DNA of 42,469 nucleotides from Dehalococcoidia bacterium. Lineage in GTDB: Bacteria > Chloroflexota > Dehalococcoidia > GIF9 > AB-539-J10. A program made the position numbers and the translations under genes. The notes under the pieces are model-generated. The model was not told where the DNA came from and made no database searches. It was given only the letters and a program-made list of their open reading frames with translations. Location: positions 1 to 42,469 of the forward strand of contig PUON01000019.1 of NCBI GenBank assembly GCA_003552125.1, in the 5' to 3' direction. Each line of letters opens with the position of its first letter. Positions within the stretch are counted from its first letter, which is position 1. This document shows positions 2,831 through 10,571 of this stretch, piece by piece.

Positions 2831-3868
2831 CTAGCTTAAGACTACCTGTTCGCCGTCATTCCGGCGGACGATGCTGCCAATAGTGTATGCCTCGGGGATG
2901 ACTTGCGCCAGTTGGGGCGCATCGTCAGAAGAGACGACCATAACCATGCCGATCCCCATGTTGAAGACGCGGTACATCTCGTCCTCCGAGATGTCACCGG
3001 CATCCCGTATCATGTCGAAGATCGCCGGAACCGTCCATGATTCGCGGCGCAGTGCCGCCGCAGTGCCCTCAGGAAGAATGCGACAGACATTGCCTTGGAA
3101 CCCTCCGCCGGTGATATGCGCAAGTCCCTTGATGAGATTGAGGTGTGGTTTGAGCATGTGATGATATGCTCGATGTGGTTCCAGCAGGGCGTCGCCCAGT
3201 GAGCGGCCGAGTTCCGGGTAATAATGGTTGAGGTTGGACGGTCTTTCGTCGATGTTGAACACGCGGCGCACAAGTGAGTAACCGTTAGTATGCAGGCCGG
3301 ATGAGGGAAGGCCGAGCAGCACGTCCCCCGGTGTGATAGTGCGGCCGTCTATCACGCGGGTTCGTTCGACAATGCCGACAATGAAGCCCACCAGATCGTA
3401 GATTCCCTCCGTATAGAATCCGGGCATCTCTGCCGTCTCGCCGCCGATGAGGGCAAGGCCACCATCGCGGCACGCATTGGCAAGCCCCGCCACAATATCG
3501 GCCACCTGTTCCTGGTCAAGTCGCGCCATGGCGATGTAGTCCATGAAGAACAGTGGCATCGCACCGCAGCAGAGGATGTCATTGATACAGTGATTGACGA
3601 TGTCGTAGCCAACGGTACGGTTGCGGCCGAACAGTTTTGCCAGTTTGAGCTTGGTGCCCACTCCATCGGCACTTGATACCAGCACCGGGTCCTCATAACC
3701 TTCAAGGTGGTACAGCGAACCGAACGAACCGACACCGAGGCACCTCGCGTCCAGTGTCGAACTCAGCGACTGTTGGATGTGCTCCTTGATGTGATCCGCG
3801 CCGCCAATACTGACTCCGGCTGCGGCGTAGGATTGTACCCGCTCATCAGGGCTCCCATTCTGGCTCAT
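2831..3868 (-). CDS. purM: Phosphoribosylformylglycinamidine cyclo-ligase (AIR synthetase)
   Basis: The 345-residue product closes the imidazole ring of FGAM with ATP to give AIR, step five of purine synthesis. The N-terminus YAAAGVSIGGAD, the SSADGVGTKLK segment, the GGETAEMPG loop and the later ITGGGFQGN glycine-rich loop are family landmarks. I place the start at the ATG whose last two bases form part of the purF stop (ATGA overlap); a longer frame reaching 3940 lies inside purF and has no good ribosome site. GGAAGCGAG precedes the chosen start. The 4-base overlap implies translational coupling to purF. Confidence 0.96.
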   Translation of the reverse strand: MSQNGSPDERVQSYAAAGVSIGGADHIKEHIQQSLSSTLDARCLGVGSFGSLYHLEGYEDPVLVSSADGVGTKLKLAKLFGRNRTVGYDIVNHCINDILCCGAMPLFFMDYIAMARLDQEQVADIVAGLANACRDGGLALIGGETAEMPGFYTEGIYDLVGFIVGIVERTRVIDGRTITPGDVLLGLPSSGLHTNGYSLVRRVFNIDERPSNLNHYYPELGRSLGDALLEPHRAYHHMLKPHLNLIKGLAHITGGGFQGNVCRILPEGTAAALRRESWTVPAIFDMIRDAGDISEDEMYRVFNMGIGMVMVVSSDDAPQLAQVIPEAYTIGSIVRRNDGEQVVLS

Positions 3869-5253
3869 ACGCGCTCGCTTCCAGCGGTGAGACTGGTGAG
3901 GCCCATCTGGACGGGAAGCGGGTAGTCTCCTTCGAAGCACGCCAGACAGAGCAAATCCTGTGGCAGCGCGACCGCCTCAACGAGGCCCGGTACGCTGGTG
4001 TAACCAAGGGAGTCGACACCCAGGTAATCTGCTATCTCCGAAACGGACATGCGGGCGGCTATGAGCTCCCATTCAGATGCCATGTCGACGCCCAGAGCGC
4101 AGGGGTGCCTGAGTGGAGGGGCACAGATGCGGAGGTGTACTTCTCGCGCTCCTGCCTGTCGCAACAGATTGACCACTCGAGGCGTGGTCGTGCCGCGCAC
4201 AATGCTGTCGTCCACTACGACCAGGCGTTGTCCCTTGATGAGACTTGCCATTGGGTTGAACTTCAACTGTACGCCGAGATCGCGCAACCTCTGATCCGGA
4301 GCGATGAACGTCCTCCCCACATAGCGGTTCTTGAGCAACCCTTCGCGATAGGGTATACCCGACGCGCGGGAGTAGCCGATGGCGGCAGCGGTTGCCGAAT
4401 CAGGCACGCCCAGAACCAGGTCCGCGTCGACAGGATGCTCTTCGGCGAGTTTCGCGCCCATGGCCAGCCTCGCCTCGTATACAAGACGGCCTTCTACGAC
4501 ACTGTCCGGTCTTGCGAAGTATATATGCTCAAAGACACAGAAAGCGCGTCGCCCGTTGCGCCCGAAGTGAAGAGAAGAGGTCTCGTTGTTCAGGAACACG
4601 ATCTCCCCGGGATTCACGTCACGAATGAATTTCGCGCCGATGTGGTCGAGGGCACATGTCTCCGATGCCGCTACCAAACCTCCATTGAGAGACCCGAGGG
4701 ATAGTGGGCGCACGCCCATCGGATCGCGCGCTGCGATCAGCATGTCAGGCGTGAGCGCGGTGATCGAATACGCGCCTTGCAGCCGTTTCAGGGCGGATGA
4801 GGTCTTCTCTTGCCAGGTCGCGCCGTGACTGCTCACGATGAGCTTGGCAATGAGTTCGGCATTGCTGTCTGACGCGAAGTGCTGCCCCGAAGCCTCAAGG
4901 GATTGGCGCAACGATGCTGAGTTGGTGATATTGCCGTTGTGAGCAACGGCGATGCTCCACGGTCCGTTTCGCTCCAGAACGGGTTGGGGAGTGGCTGGTC
5001 TCCTGGCATTGCAGGTCGAGTAACAGGTGTGGCCGATTGCTGCATGTCCACGCATGCCTGCGAGGTCTTCCTCGGTGAAGACCTGGGCAACGAGTCCCGG
5101 TTCTGCATGAAGATGAACTTCATTGCCATCGCACACTGCGATGCCAGCGCACTCCTGTCCCCGATGCTGTAGCGCAAACAGCGCGAAGAACACCAGTCGC
5201 GCGTTATCGAGTCCAGGGGCGTAGACGCCAAATATGCCGCAACTCTCGTGCAT
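3865..5253 (-). CDS. purF: Amidophosphoribosyltransferase
   Basis: This 462-residue enzyme commits PRPP to purine synthesis by transferring glutamine ammonia. It resembles the Bacillus type: a short MHES propeptide before the catalytic C5, the LQHRGQE and AHNGNITN glutaminase motifs, the PRPP loop VVVDDSIVRGTT, and four cysteines placed like the 4Fe-4S ligands (FCVFEHIYF, RHPCALG and CLACFEGDYP). One key position is odd: the conserved glutaminase motif GHxRYST reads GHTCYST, so C77 stands where the glutamine-binding Arg (Arg73 in E. coli) is expected, and the next residues, CNARRPATPQP, also differ from the usual AG-rich loop. It heads the minus-strand purine operon behind a consensus-like promoter. 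Confidence 0.96.
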   Translation of the reverse strand: MHESCGIFGVYAPGLDNARLVFFALFALQHRGQECAGIAVCDGNEVHLHAEPGLVAQVFTEEDLAGMRGHAAIGHTCYSTCNARRPATPQPVLERNGPWSIAVAHNGNITNSASLRQSLEASGQHFASDSNAELIAKLIVSSHGATWQEKTSSALKRLQGAYSITALTPDMLIAARDPMGVRPLSLGSLNGGLVAASETCALDHIGAKFIRDVNPGEIVFLNNETSSLHFGRNGRRAFCVFEHIYFARPDSVVEGRLVYEARLAMGAKLAEEHPVDADLVLGVPDSATAAAIGYSRASGIPYREGLLKNRYVGRTFIAPDQRLRDLGVQLKFNPMASLIKGQRLVVVDDSIVRGTTTPRVVNLLRQAGAREVHLRICAPPLRHPCALGVDMASEWELIAARMSVSEIADYLGVDSLGYTSVPGLVEAVALPQDLLCLACFEGDYPLPVQMGLTSLTAGSERV

Positions 5254-5597: not shown

Positions 5598-7781
5598 ATG
5601 GTCCAAGTCGTGCAGCGCTCAATCGCTGGGCGAACGCTCAGCATGGAGACGGGCAGGCTTGCCGGGCAGGCGAATGCGGCTGTCCTCGTTCGCTACGGCG
5701 ATACCATTGTGCTCGTGACCGTCTGCGCAGCCGATGAGGCTGTCGGAGGAATGGATTTCGTTCCATTAACGGTCGATTACGAAGAGAAACTGTATGCTGC
5801 CGGCAAGATCCCTGGCAGTTTCATCAGGCGAGAGGGCAGGCCGACAGAGGATGCGACGCTTACTGCCCGACTTGTGGATCGTTGTCTGAGACCTCTGCTG
5901 TCCAAGCGGTTCGGACGCGAGACCCAGGTAGTTGCGACCGTCCTCTCCGCTGACAAGGAGAACAACCCTGATACATGCGCGCTCATTGGCGCGTCCACTG
6001 CCTTAAGTATCTCCGAGATCCCGTTTGCCGGACCTGTATCTGCAGTGCGTGTTGGTTGCGTCGATGGGCAACTGGTGGTCAATCCCAGTATGTCTGTGAT
6101 GGAAGACAGTCAGCTTGACATCGTAGTGGGAAGTACCCGAGATGCGGTCGTCATGGTTGAGGCAGGTGGGGAGCAGGTCAGTGAGGAGACGATCCTTGAG
6201 GCGATACGTTTGGGACACGAAGCAAACCTGGAGATCCTTGGACTCCAGGACGAGATGGCAAGCCTTTGCGGCCAGCCTAAGATTGAAGTGACGCCCTACA
6301 CGCCACCTGCTGATATGGTGGCAGGTATCTCAGCCATGCTAGGAGAGAAGGTCGCCCATGCGTTGAGAAGACCCGGCAAGGGTGCGAGATCTGTTGCGCT
6401 GGATGAAATCAGGAGCGCAGTTCTTGCAGCCTGGGGCGAGAAGTATGCGGAAGACGAGGTGGAGTACGTCTACAACTCACAGCTGAAGGAACACATTCGG
6501 CGGCATGTCCTGCAGACGCGTCAGCATATCGATGGACGCCCCCATGATGAGATTCGGCCGGTCTCTACCGAAGTAGGTGTACTGCCGTGCACCCATGGCT
6601 CGGGTCTGTTTACCCGTGGTCAGACTCAGGTATTGACGGTTACCACTCTTGGGTCCGAACGGCAAGAGCAGATGCTCGATGGCCTTGGCCTTGCGGAGAC
6701 CAAGAGGTTCATGCACCACTACAACTTCCCGGGCTTTTCCACGGGAGAAGTCAGACGCCTTCGAATGCCGGGCAGACGTGAAATCGGACATGGTGCGCTC
6801 GTTGAACGCGCCATCACACCGGTGATACCCTCCGAGGAAGAGTTCCCCTACACCGTGCGGTTGGTCTCCGAGGTGCTCAGTTCCAATGGCAGTTCCTCAA
6901 TGGCGAGTGTGTGTGGCTCGACATTGTCGCTGATGGATGCCGGCGTTCCGATCAAGGCTCCTGTGGCGGGCATCGCCATGGGCGTTATCAGTTCGGATGA
7001 CGGCGGGCATGTGATCCTGACTGATATCGAAGGTATGGAAGATGCGCTGGGTGACATGGATTTCAAGGTCGCCGGTACCTCTGAAGGCATCACTGCGTTG
7101 CAACTGGACATCAAGATGCAGGGCATTAACACGGCCTTGCTCGAAGAGGCAATGACCCAGGCTCGTGCGGCCAGGCTATGGCTGCTCGACAAGATGGCCG
7201 AGACTATCAGCACGAGCAGGGCTGAACTAAGCCCCTTTGCGCCGAGGGTTCTGGAACTGAAGATCGATATCGACAAGATCGGGGCACTGATAGGACCCGG
7301 AGGACGGAATATCAGAGCCATTATCGAGGAGACCAAGACCACCATCGACGTCAAGAGCGATGGCCGTGTCATGATTGGCTCTGCAAATGAGGAGTCCACA
7401 CGCCGTGCGGTCAAGATGGTGGAAGATCTGACCCGTGAGGCCAAGGTAGGCGATATATATACCGGCAAGGTGACGCGAATACTGGATTTCGGAGCCATGG
7501 TTGAGATCCTTCCCGGCAAGGAAGGGTTGGTACACATAAGCGAACTCGCGACGCATCGGGTTCCCTCTGTCCAGGATGAGGTTGAGCTGGGGGACGAGGT
7601 GACGGTGAAGGTGATCGAGATCGACAGCCTGGGTCGCATCAACCTGTCGCGTCGCGCCGTGTTCGCTGGCGAGTCGGACGATCGCCCGCCGAGACAGTCC
7701 AGGCCACAGCCATCTCGCCCCCCGAGGCACGGACCGCCACCCAGACATCGCCACGATCAGGGTGGGCCGAGGCGATCGTAG
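5598..7781 (+). CDS. pnp: Polyribonucleotide nucleotidyltransferase (PNPase)
   Basis: The 727-residue PNPase degrades RNA 3' to 5' with phosphate and can add 3' tails. Two RNase PH domains carry IPGSFIRREGRP in the first and the catalytic LGDMDFKVAGT with its Asp pair in the second. A KH domain (IGALIGPGGRNIRAI) and an S1 domain (GKVTRILDFGAMVEILPG) follow. The last 35 or so residues form a low-complexity tail rich in Pro, Arg and His. GAGGAGG sits just before the ATG, and the rpsO-pnp pairing is the common bacterial arrangement, in which PNPase often controls its own message. Confidence 0.98.
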   Translation: MVQVVQRSIAGRTLSMETGRLAGQANAAVLVRYGDTIVLVTVCAADEAVGGMDFVPLTVDYEEKLYAAGKIPGSFIRREGRPTEDATLTARLVDRCLRPLLSKRFGRETQVVATVLSADKENNPDTCALIGASTALSISEIPFAGPVSAVRVGCVDGQLVVNPSMSVMEDSQLDIVVGSTRDAVVMVEAGGEQVSEETILEAIRLGHEANLEILGLQDEMASLCGQPKIEVTPYTPPADMVAGISAMLGEKVAHALRRPGKGARSVALDEIRSAVLAAWGEKYAEDEVEYVYNSQLKEHIRRHVLQTRQHIDGRPHDEIRPVSTEVGVLPCTHGSGLFTRGQTQVLTVTTLGSERQEQMLDGLGLAETKRFMHHYNFPGFSTGEVRRLRMPGRREIGHGALVERAITPVIPSEEEFPYTVRLVSEVLSSNGSSSMASVCGSTLSLMDAGVPIKAPVAGIAMGVISSDDGGHVILTDIEGMEDALGDMDFKVAGTSEGITALQLDIKMQGINTALLEEAMTQARAARLWLLDKMAETISTSRAELSPFAPRVLELKIDIDKIGALIGPGGRNIRAIIEETKTTIDVKSDGRVMIGSANEESTRRAVKMVEDLTREAKVGDIYTGKVTRILDFGAMVEILPGKEGLVHISELATHRVPSVQDEVELGDEVTVKVIEIDSLGRINLSRRAVFAGESDDRPPRQSRPQPSRPPRHGPPPRHRHDQGGPRRS

Positions 7782-7835: not shown

Positions 7836-8630
7836 GTGCCTATACGAGTGGTCGTCAATGGGGCTCTCGGACGCATGGGTCATGAGGTCGTGCGGGCTGT
7901 TGTGGCCGATCCCGAGTTGAAGCTCGTCGGCGCGATTGAGAAGAATGCGCCTCAGCCGTATCTGCCCATTCCGGATCATCCGGACCTCATTCCGTTCTCA
8001 CCGTCACTCGGTTCTCTCATAGAGAAGACCTGTCCTGACGTCGTCGTGGATTTCACTTCGGCGTCTGTGGCTATGGCGGTGGCCCGCGTCACCTTATCGT
8101 CGAAGGTGTGCCTCGTCACTGGGACGACTGGTCTTGCGGAGAAAGAGTTCGACGAAATAGCTGAACTGTGCGCACGTCACGAAGTAGGAGCCGTCGTCGC
8201 GGCGAATTTTTCTCTGGGTGCCGTATTGCTCATGCACCTCGCTGCTATCACCTCCAGGTTCTTCTCGACTGCTGAGATACTTGAGATGCATCACGACAAG
8301 AAGCTGGACGCGCCATCTGGAACCGCACTGGCTACGGCTCGCAAGATGGTGGAGGCTCGAGGTCGGGACTTTGTGCATCCCCTCACGGAGAAGGAAGTAC
8401 TTGATGGTGTCAGAGGGGGTGAATCTGGAGGCGTAGGTATCCACAGCGTTCGTATGCCCGGAGTGATGGCAACTCAGGAGGTGCTCTTTGGAGGTCAGGG
8501 ACAGACGTTGATGCTACGGCACGACGCCACCAGTCGTGAATCCTATATGCCAGGGGTGATTCTGGCGGTAAAAGAAGTGGTCAAGTCCAGAAGTTTGATC
8601 CGTGGTCTTGATAAGCTGCTGGGTCTGTAG
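7836..8630 (+). CDS. dapB: 4-hydroxy-tetrahydrodipicolinate reductase
   Basis: This 264-residue enzyme reduces the DapA product with NAD(P)H to tetrahydrodipicolinate on the way to diaminopimelate and lysine. The N-terminal nucleotide loop is NGALGRMGHEV, and the substrate site EMHHDKKLDAPSGTAL contains the catalytic His and Lys. VDFTSASVA and the GTTGL turn are also standard. The start is a GTG behind a strong AGGGGAGGT. It opens a three-gene cluster with the Asd homologue (one-base overlap) and dapA, 54 bp after pnp with no clear terminator between. Confidence 0.96.
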   Translation: MPIRVVVNGALGRMGHEVVRAVVADPELKLVGAIEKNAPQPYLPIPDHPDLIPFSPSLGSLIEKTCPDVVVDFTSASVAMAVARVTLSSKVCLVTGTTGLAEKEFDEIAELCARHEVGAVVAANFSLGAVLLMHLAAITSRFFSTAEILEMHHDKKLDAPSGTALATARKMVEARGRDFVHPLTEKEVLDGVRGGESGGVGIHSVRMPGVMATQEVLFGGQGQTLMLRHDATSRESYMPGVILAVKEVVKSRSLIRGLDKLLGL

Positions 8631-9673
8631 TGGTGATGGAATCTGTCGACATAGGCATCCTGGGAGCAGAAGGGCTTGTTGGACAGGAACTCCTCAAAAT
8701 TCTTGAGGAGCGCAGGTTTCCAGCAACTTCCGTTCGCTTGTTCGACACCGATCGAACACCGGGTGCGGAGTTCTTCTTCAGCCACAAGAGATTGGAGGTT
8801 GTTGAAGCCACACCGGATGGGTTCCGCAATCTCGATGTCATGTTCTTCTGCGATGGCATCGATTCGAGTCGTCGCCTGTTGCCGTCCGCGCTTCAGGCTG
8901 GTGTGGTGGTTGTGGACGACAGTGGAGCCGTCGCCAACGATGAGTCGGTACCTCTCGTGGTTCCGGAGGCTAATGCCGAGACGATCCTGAAGCACAAGGG
9001 CGTCCTTGGAAGCCCGGGCAGTTCTACAATCCAACTCGTTGTTGCACTGGCGCCGCTGCATCGAGTGAATCCGGTCAGAAGGATTGTGGTAAGCACTTAT
9101 CAGCCGGTGTCGTGCAGCGGTACGACGGCGGCGTTGAAGGAACTGACTGCCCAGGCAAAGCGTGTCCTGGAGGGTCGGCGTGTGTGCCCTCACATGTACT
9201 CGCATCAGATCGCTTTCAACGTGCTCCCGGAGATAGATGTGTTTCTGGACAACGGGTATACGAAGGAAGAATGGCGGATTGTCCAGGAGACGCGCAGGGT
9301 GTTGGGGGACAGCGCAATCGGCATCTCGGCCACTTGTGTCCGCGTGCCGGTGTATTTCGGTCAGAGTCAGTCGGTGAACGTAGAGTTCGATGCTGCAATG
9401 ACTCCGGACGAGGCCCGCAGGATTCTCGCACAGGCACCGGGTATACGGATCCTCGATGACCCGAGCGTCAGCTTCTATCCTCAACCGTGGGCTGCAAGTG
9501 GTTTGAATCACGTCTTTGTCGGCAGAATCAGGCGAGACTCATCCCGCCTGAATGCCCTGTCGATGTGGATTGTCTGTGATAATCTGCGCAAAGGTGCTGC
9601 GCTCAACGCGGTCCAGATTGTCGAAGAGGGTTTGCGGCGAGACTGGATCAAGTCTAAGAAAAGGAGGGCCTGA
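8630..9673 (+). CDS. asd: Aspartate-semialdehyde dehydrogenase homologue with altered active site
   Basis: Length (347 residues) and overall sequence are those of ASADH: GAEGLVGQELLKILEER at the nucleotide fold, LDNGYTKEEW, SATCVRVPV and NLRKGAALNAVQI. The active site is not. The catalytic motif PNCSTIQ reads PGSSTIQ, with Ser at 131 in place of Cys, and the conserved GHSE reads GQSQ, with Gln at 245 in place of the catalytic His. The NADP/phosphate-binding segments are also changed (FDTDRTPGAEF for the usual SxRSxGK region; SGAVAND for the usual SSxFR). Q158 and R238, which match Gln162 and Arg267 of E. coli, remain. It sits between dapB and dapA, and a ribosome site six bases before dapA suggests co-expression. 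It is probably a non-catalytic paralogue, comparable to USG-1, or has new chemistry. GTG at 8630, GTG at 8633 and ATG at 8636 are all possible starts. Confidence 0.85.
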   Translation: MVMESVDIGILGAEGLVGQELLKILEERRFPATSVRLFDTDRTPGAEFFFSHKRLEVVEATPDGFRNLDVMFFCDGIDSSRRLLPSALQAGVVVVDDSGAVANDESVPLVVPEANAETILKHKGVLGSPGSSTIQLVVALAPLHRVNPVRRIVVSTYQPVSCSGTTAALKELTAQAKRVLEGRRVCPHMYSHQIAFNVLPEIDVFLDNGYTKEEWRIVQETRRVLGDSAIGISATCVRVPVYFGQSQSVNVEFDAAMTPDEARRILAQAPGIRILDDPSVSFYPQPWAASGLNHVFVGRIRRDSSRLNALSMWIVCDNLRKGAALNAVQIVEEGLRRDWIKSKKRRA

Positions 9674-9674
9674 G

Positions 9675-10571
9675 ATGCCGGCATTTGGAAGGCTCTTGAC
9701 CGCTATGGTCACCCCATTTGATGAGAATGGTGAAGTGGACTATCCACAGGCGAGGAGACTGGCACGTGCGCTGATGCAGTCTGGCAGTGATGGTTTGGTG
9801 GTGTCCGGTACCACGGGAGAGTCGCCCACGCTCACCATGGAGGAGAAGCTGCGCCTGTTTGGGGAGATCAAGGATGAACTGGGCGAGGCAGGCGTGGTGG
9901 TTGCCGGTACCGGGAACTACAGTACTCGTGAGAGTATTGAGTTGACCCGTGAAGCTAAGAAGATGGGTGTCGATGCGTGTCTACTCGTGGTTCCCTACTA
10001 CAATCGGCCGACCCAAGAGGGACTGTACCGGCATTTCAGCACGATCGCCACTGCGTGCGATCTGCCCTGCATTATGTACAACGTGCCATCAAGGACCTCG
10101 TGCAACCTTGCGGCCGAGACCGTAATACGCCTCAGCGCGGTTGATAACATCATTGGAGTAAAAGAAGCCAGTGCGAACTTCCGGCAGATCTCAGAGATCA
10201 TACAGGGTGTTCCCAATGACTTCCTGGTATACAGCGGTAATGATGGCGATACCTTTCCGCTGATGGCCATGGGAGGCTACGGTGTGGTGGGTGTGGTTAC
10301 GCATCTGGTGGGCCTCCAGACAAAAGACATGATGGAGAAGCTTCTTGACGGAAGAACCGAGGAGGCAGCCGTGATTCATCGACACCTCCTTCCGTTTGTG
10401 GATGCGATGTTTCTGGTGGCGAACCCAATACCGTTGAAGTTCGCGATGAATCGCCTGGGCTTTCGCGTGGGGCCAACACGATTGCCTCTGTGTGAGCCTG
10501 ACGAAAAGACCGCAGCAACAATCTCAACCGCACTGGAAAGCGTCAGAATTGATCTGTTGCTTCCCGGTTGA
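9675..10571 (+). CDS. dapA: 4-hydroxy-tetrahydrodipicolinate synthase
   Basis: The 298-residue class I aldolase condenses pyruvate with aspartate semialdehyde, the first step specific to lysine/diaminopimelate. SGTTGESPTL supplies the Thr pair, YNVPSRT the Tyr and substrate-binding Arg, and GVKEAS the Schiff-base Lys. I start at the ATG preceded by AGGAGG, one base after the upstream stop codon; a frame extending back to 9552 overlaps the previous gene and has no family similarity. All catalytic residues are present, in contrast to the Asd homologue next door. Confidence 0.96.
   Translation: MPAFGRLLTAMVTPFDENGEVDYPQARRLARALMQSGSDGLVVSGTTGESPTLTMEEKLRLFGEIKDELGEAGVVVAGTGNYSTRESIELTREAKKMGVDACLLVVPYYNRPTQEGLYRHFSTIATACDLPCIMYNVPSRTSCNLAAETVIRLSAVDNIIGVKEASANFRQISEIIQGVPNDFLVYSGNDGDTFPLMAMGGYGVVGVVTHLVGLQTKDMMEKLLDGRTEEAAVIHRHLLPFVDAMFLVANPIPLKFAMNRLGFRVGPTRLPLCEPDEKTAATISTALESVRIDLLLPG

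Follow-up and report, generated by a model that had tools for sequence, protein, structure and literature searches.

A dap-operon Asd homologue of Dehalococcoidia without catalytic cysteine and histidine: a probable pseudoenzyme

Introduction

Bacterial ASADHs work with an essential cysteine and a histidine helper (PMC12060211). The closest parallel to the gene described here is E. coli Usg (USG-1, b2319; the P. aeruginosa protein is PDB 2hjs), an Asd homologue encoded in a pdxB-usg-truA operon, with a true asd elsewhere in the genome. It has been treated as a putative ASADH (PMC6358828). Literature searches on ASADH pseudoenzymes and on USG-1 found nothing on mechanism, and no paper linking ASADH with the word pseudoenzyme was found in the literature searched. 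Some dead paralogues kept in a biosynthetic setting, such as HisZ and the SAM decarboxylase prozyme, have been proven to activate a specific enzyme.

Here we describe asd', an asd_B-type Asd homologue without the catalytic Cys and His, in a window of 42,469 nt (the whole stretch of DNA that was analyzed) from a dehalococcoidian MAG (G000; a 2.09-Mb draft, 94% complete). Its nearest named relatives were MAGs of Dehalococcoidia, in the phylum Chloroflexota. Of the six closest, three have isolate names with the prefix CSSed, which is also found in the literature on soda-lake sediment. The locus was compared within the genus of the window genome (g1, seven genomes) and within a family sample of 52 genomes.

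Results

Gene and neighborhood

The asd' gene (8630..9673, + strand), identified from its translation, family models, and residue mapping to E. coli Asd, had a frame open from GTG at 8630 to TGA at 9673 (347 aa); the likelier start is the ATG at 8636 (residue 3), where a Met was common to the seven-species alignment. The product scored 372 bits against NCBIfam NF011456 (cut-off 223) and 356 bits against TIGR01296 (cut-off 324), and it carried both Pfam domains of ASADH. The predicted structure was an ASADH fold (pLDDT 86; TM-score of about 0.9 to solved ASADHs).

Immediately upstream, dapB (7836..8630, +) retained its catalytic HH..K and SGT motif, and its stop codon shares one base with the GTG of asd'. 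Downstream, dapA (9675..10571, +) retained the GTTGESP, YNVPSRT, and GVKEAS motifs. The original prediction of an intact frame between functional dapB and dapA was borne out. Together with pnp (5598..7781, +) as upstream gene, the locus belongs to a conserved rpsO-pnp-dapB-asd-dapA block, an order seen in the seven g1 members and in relatives. In the family loci read, the pnp-dapB-asd order was constant wherever the contig reached, with dapA sometimes missing. The ribosome-binding site of dapA (AAAAGGAGG, window 9655-9677, AGGAGG) sits in the last codons of asd', and the conservation of the C-terminal KKRRA of asd' may partly reflect this site.

Catalytic and ligand-binding residues

Residues of asd' were mapped by alignment with E. 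coli Asd as reference. The nucleophile C135 was replaced by S131 and N134 by G130, both within SPGSSTIQ (residues 128-135; 9011..9034, +), which is NPNCSTIQ in active relatives. The catalytic H274 was replaced by Q245 within FGQSQ (residues 243-247; 9356..9370, +), where active relatives in the family have FGHSE and where Q247 stands for Glu. Both replacements, Ser131 for the nucleophilic Cys and Gln245 for the catalytic His, were as originally predicted, and the predicted changes in the phosphate and NADP contact segments were found as well. The phosphate-binding R102 was replaced by A102 in DDSGAVA (residues 96-102; 8915..8935, +; DNSxAFR in active relatives), a motif that also carried N97D. 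The nucleotide-binding loop GAEGLVG (residues 12-18; 8663..8683, +; GATGLVG in active relatives) showed the T14E change from GATG to GAEG, which was present in all seven g1 members; of 78 active sequences, 77 have T at this position. The NADP 2'-phosphate loop DTDRT (residues 39-43; 8744..8758, +; ASERS or ASDRS in active relatives) carried A39D, and further NADP or substrate motif changes were S74C/A75D and G162C plus a one-residue insertion. The added acidic residues suggest that asd' may no longer bind NADP.

Retained residues were Q158, E213, and R238 (Q162, E241, and R267 of E. coli Asd, the last being the substrate carboxylate Arg). The original prediction had listed the fold, Q158, and R238 as kept. 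This held for the fold, in the predicted structure, and for both residues in the window protein; genus-wide it failed for Q158, which was Glu in three of the seven g1 genomes. A residual ASADH, in which Ser131 and Gln245 would give a slow turnover that supplies DapA locally beside a second asd, would fit the retention of R238, E213, and Q158 in the window protein. However, N130, R102, C131, and H245 were lost together and position 245 is Arg in another g1 genome (G002), so that we regard such turnover as very unlikely. A Cys-to-Ser change abolishes ASADH turnover, and the solved H. influenzae C136S mutant (1pqp) was among the structures matching the asd' model.

Distribution of residue loss in the genus and family

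The comparison with relatives that the original prediction had proposed showed that none of the seven g1 genomes retains the catalytic His (six have Gln and G002 has Arg) or the phosphate Arg, position 102 being A, S, L, or V. The Cys was gone in three and survived in four. Sequencing or assembly error as the cause of residue loss was rejected, as the seven genomes agreed on the loss of His and phosphate Arg. In the tree, g1 was monophyletic (SH-aLRT 100) with a long stem branch (0.43), and its three Cys-less species formed one subclade (95); His loss was therefore earlier than Cys loss in g1, and it also predates the divergence of species sharing 77% identity.

E14, D39, C74, D75, G127, and G130 were fixed across all seven g1 species, which indicates a pocket that was remodeled and then held rather than plain drift. 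Changes common to all g1 members affected 10 of 38 motif columns versus 6 of 92 other conserved columns (Fisher P = 0.006, with a post hoc motif list and kinship ignored).

Outside g1, Cys or His was lost in four genomes of the family: Cys to Ala in G036 and G417, His to Asp in G017, and Cys to Ser in G024. The tree required five Cys/His changes when L138, a sequence from outside the family, was counted. L138 (LJUA01000054.1, Dehalococcoidia SM23_28_2, 3457-4458) is an Asd that independently has Ser for Cys (IPNSST) and Asn for His (VANSAA); it adjoins dapA, and dapB lies elsewhere. The SM23_28_2 draft had a homoserine dehydrogenase, but a search of it yielded no second asd and no aspartokinase above the cut-off.

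A second asd

According to the original prediction, a second, active asd would be needed elsewhere. The genome search found one further ASADH in the window genome, a TIGR00978 protein (archaeal/fungal type) on contig C168 with intact PNCTT and GHTE, and absence of a second asd was rejected. This genome also encodes ArgC. Besides the second asd, it carries genes for aspartokinase, homoserine dehydrogenase, DapA, and LysA, so that these steps do not depend on asd'. All seven g1 genomes had the second asd with intact motifs, the copy in G006 being only partial. In several genomes of g10, a sister genus, it shared a contig with aspartokinase and was not more than a few kb away. Two nitrilase-like genes were observed near the second asd of the window genome (L178 16-954 and 9018-10061, G000:C168). 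In three g10 genomes, a broken partial copy stood directly beside the intact one (G033:C20:36015-36326, G035:C4:110767-111075, and G416:C64:1382-1699). DapA-family matches numbered three to six in the window genome and other g1 genomes versus one in relatives having dapA.

Family-wide, the dap-operon copy was eroded in every genus with the second asd, and it was canonical or nearly so in genera without it. Motif erosion differed between the nine genera with and the five without the second asd (Mann-Whitney P = 0.004, kinship ignored and motif list post hoc); an independent-pairs test of residue loss versus second asd gave P = 1, with only three pairs.

Selection on asd'

Mean pN/pS within g1 was lowest in asd' (0.146), followed by dapA (0.167), pnp (0.178), the second asd (0.190), and dapB (0.217); synonymous sites were near saturation for most pairs, and the ranking weighs more than the values. 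In the one close g1 pair (L067 and L069), omega of asd' was 0.11, between dapB (0.08) and dapA (0.21). The divergence of asd' in g1 was 0.98 relative to dapA and 0.76 relative to dapB; in genera that lack the second asd, the corresponding values of the active enzyme were 0.93 and 0.74. Because these ratios are those of the active enzyme, asd' is not decaying, in agreement with the original view that decay was unlikely. The pseudogene reading was rejected on pN/pS and intact frames.

A recent inactivation that leaves asd' on its way out would resemble the situation in g10 members with an intact lysine pathway, in which asd was relaxed relative to its neighbors (asd/dapB ratio of 1.23 versus 0.74 in active genera). 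In g1, however, the ratio equals that of the active enzyme, the His loss predates the species split mentioned, and no frame is broken. We consider a recent inactivation extremely unlikely, and for g1 it is refuted by the selection data. Retention of the frame only for translational coupling, its loss lowering dapA expression via the ribosome-binding site, would be consistent with the overlap between the dapB stop and the asd' start and with the dapA AGGAGG inside asd'. Coupling requires an open frame but not conserved amino acids, which is at odds with the pN/pS of asd', and asd was conserved at loci without dapA; we give this explanation only a slim chance.

The ratio of divergence in ligand motifs to that in the rest of the protein was 0.40 in active relatives, 1.19 in g1, and about 1.5 in g10. 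The dimerization domain (PF02774, residues 140-321 by Pfam; 9047..9592, +) was the most conserved part of the protein in g1, with a divergence of 0.126 versus 0.232 in the active set, whereas divergence of the NAD domain was similar (0.257 in g1 and 0.294 in the active set). The NAD/dimerization domain ratio was 2.03 in g1 versus 1.26 in active relatives. Constraint has moved from the ligand motifs to the dimerization domain in g1.

These data also bear on whether asd' is a neofunctionalized enzyme, with a remodeled pocket, another ligand, and a reaction needing neither Cys nor His; D39, which ends strand 2, hints for example at a switch from NADP to NAD. The six residues fixed throughout g1 are in line with such an enzyme, as is the persistence of R238, E213, and, in most species, Q158. 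On the other hand, position 102 drifts freely, Q158 varies, the ligand motifs taken together change faster than the remaining protein, and acidic side chains added to the cofactor pocket should repel a dinucleotide. A new catalytic function is, on balance, rather unlikely.

Retention of asd without the lysine pathway in g10

In a part of g10 other than that with the intact lysine pathway, eight genomes whose neighborhood was read had no dapA between asd and purA (L189-L195 and L180; G033, G414, G408, G386, G413, G418, G246, and G027), and it was also missing at the locus in G036 and G417. At the eight g10 loci the dapB and asd frames stayed open and asd was the most constrained gene (0.174), compared with purA (0.213), pnp (0.216), and dapB (0.229). 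H159 or H160 of DapB was lost in six of the eight genomes, and in g10 Asd both Cys and His mostly survived.

Genome-wide, no DapA, LysA, aspartokinase, or complete homoserine dehydrogenase was detectable in the 90-95% complete drafts G027, G413, G408, G414, and G033. The second asd was absent in all of these but G033, which also had a homoserine dehydrogenase fragment of 84 aa. A cell that lacks aspartokinase does not make the known substrate of Asd. Incompleteness is hard to blame when five drafts of this quality lack the same four functions. Draft MAGs can miss a single function, as in G010 (94% complete), which had no detectable aspartokinase although the rest of the pathway was present.

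Discussion

The results suggest that asd' is probably a pseudoenzyme with a noncatalytic, oligomeric or binding role outside aspartate-semialdehyde synthesis. As is required of a pseudoenzyme, the fold is kept (in the predicted structure), the catalytic residues are lost, and the gene is under purifying selection. We propose that the ancestor of asd' was the ordinary Asd of the dehalococcoidian dap operon, which in this family would have had, or gained, a role needing no ASADH chemistry. Once a second ASADH (TIGR00978) had taken over the reaction, the old copy would have been free to lose catalysis, with g1 as the end point. Its retention would then depend on the dimerization domain and the surface. 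The conservation of that domain points to a dimer or tetramer that may act by binding a candidate partner. Against a noncatalytic reading, the Cys survives in four of the seven g1 genomes, some g10 proteins with surviving Cys and His could act on another substrate, and the genome absences rest on draft MAGs.

The leading candidate partner among the pathway enzymes is DapB, as dapB is the only pathway gene co-retained in every neighborhood read; our confidence in any named partner is much lower than that in a noncatalytic binding role. A weaker case can be made for the neighboring PNPase. An exclusive link to DapA is disfavored because sister-genus genomes without detectable DapA, LysA, and aspartokinase conserve asd and dapB. 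Asd and DapB might even have a joint role in the family that is independent of lysine synthesis, with the pair selected after the pathway was gone, a suggestion that we make tentatively and hold to be doubtful. If true, both proteins of an Asd-DapB pair would be in simultaneous transition to pseudoenzymes, with the dimerization domain of Asd as the working surface.

Family models name asd' an active Asd with high scores, automatic annotation would follow them, and pathway reconstructions would wrongly count it. The clade forms a natural series, from an active single copy through presence of a second asd, an eroded copy, and a fully dead copy to a copy without the pathway. It is therefore a tractable case for the question of whether a second function preceded the loss of catalysis in an enzyme, and its sequences may point to a further role of Asd and DapB proteins.

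Compared with asd_B-type ASADH (TIGR01296 / PRK14874), asd' shares the fold, length, both Pfam domains, and operon position; solved bacterial members of the type are about 36-42% identical to it and match it with a TM-score of about 0.9. It lacks, however, the active-site Cys, His, and Asn and the phosphate Arg, and its constraint lies on the dimerization domain. The second asd belongs to the same superfamily and presumably performs the original reaction; it differs from asd', with which it shares 31% identity, in its intact motifs and is presumed to be the working enzyme. HisZ and the SAM decarboxylase prozyme resemble asd' as dead paralogues, but the enzyme that they activate is established, whereas the partners of asd' are candidates. 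The likeness to USG-1 put forward in the original prediction is supported, as the Cys (PDS in Usg) and phosphate Arg are lost in both, although the residue sets differ: in Usg the His is still present and Gln162 and Arg267 are gone, and the usg operon is a different one. In addition, asd' scored below the cut-offs of the USG-1 models (PRK08040, 199.6 bits, cut-off 273; PRK05671, 239.8 bits, cut-off 284), and it represents a lineage separate from USG-1.
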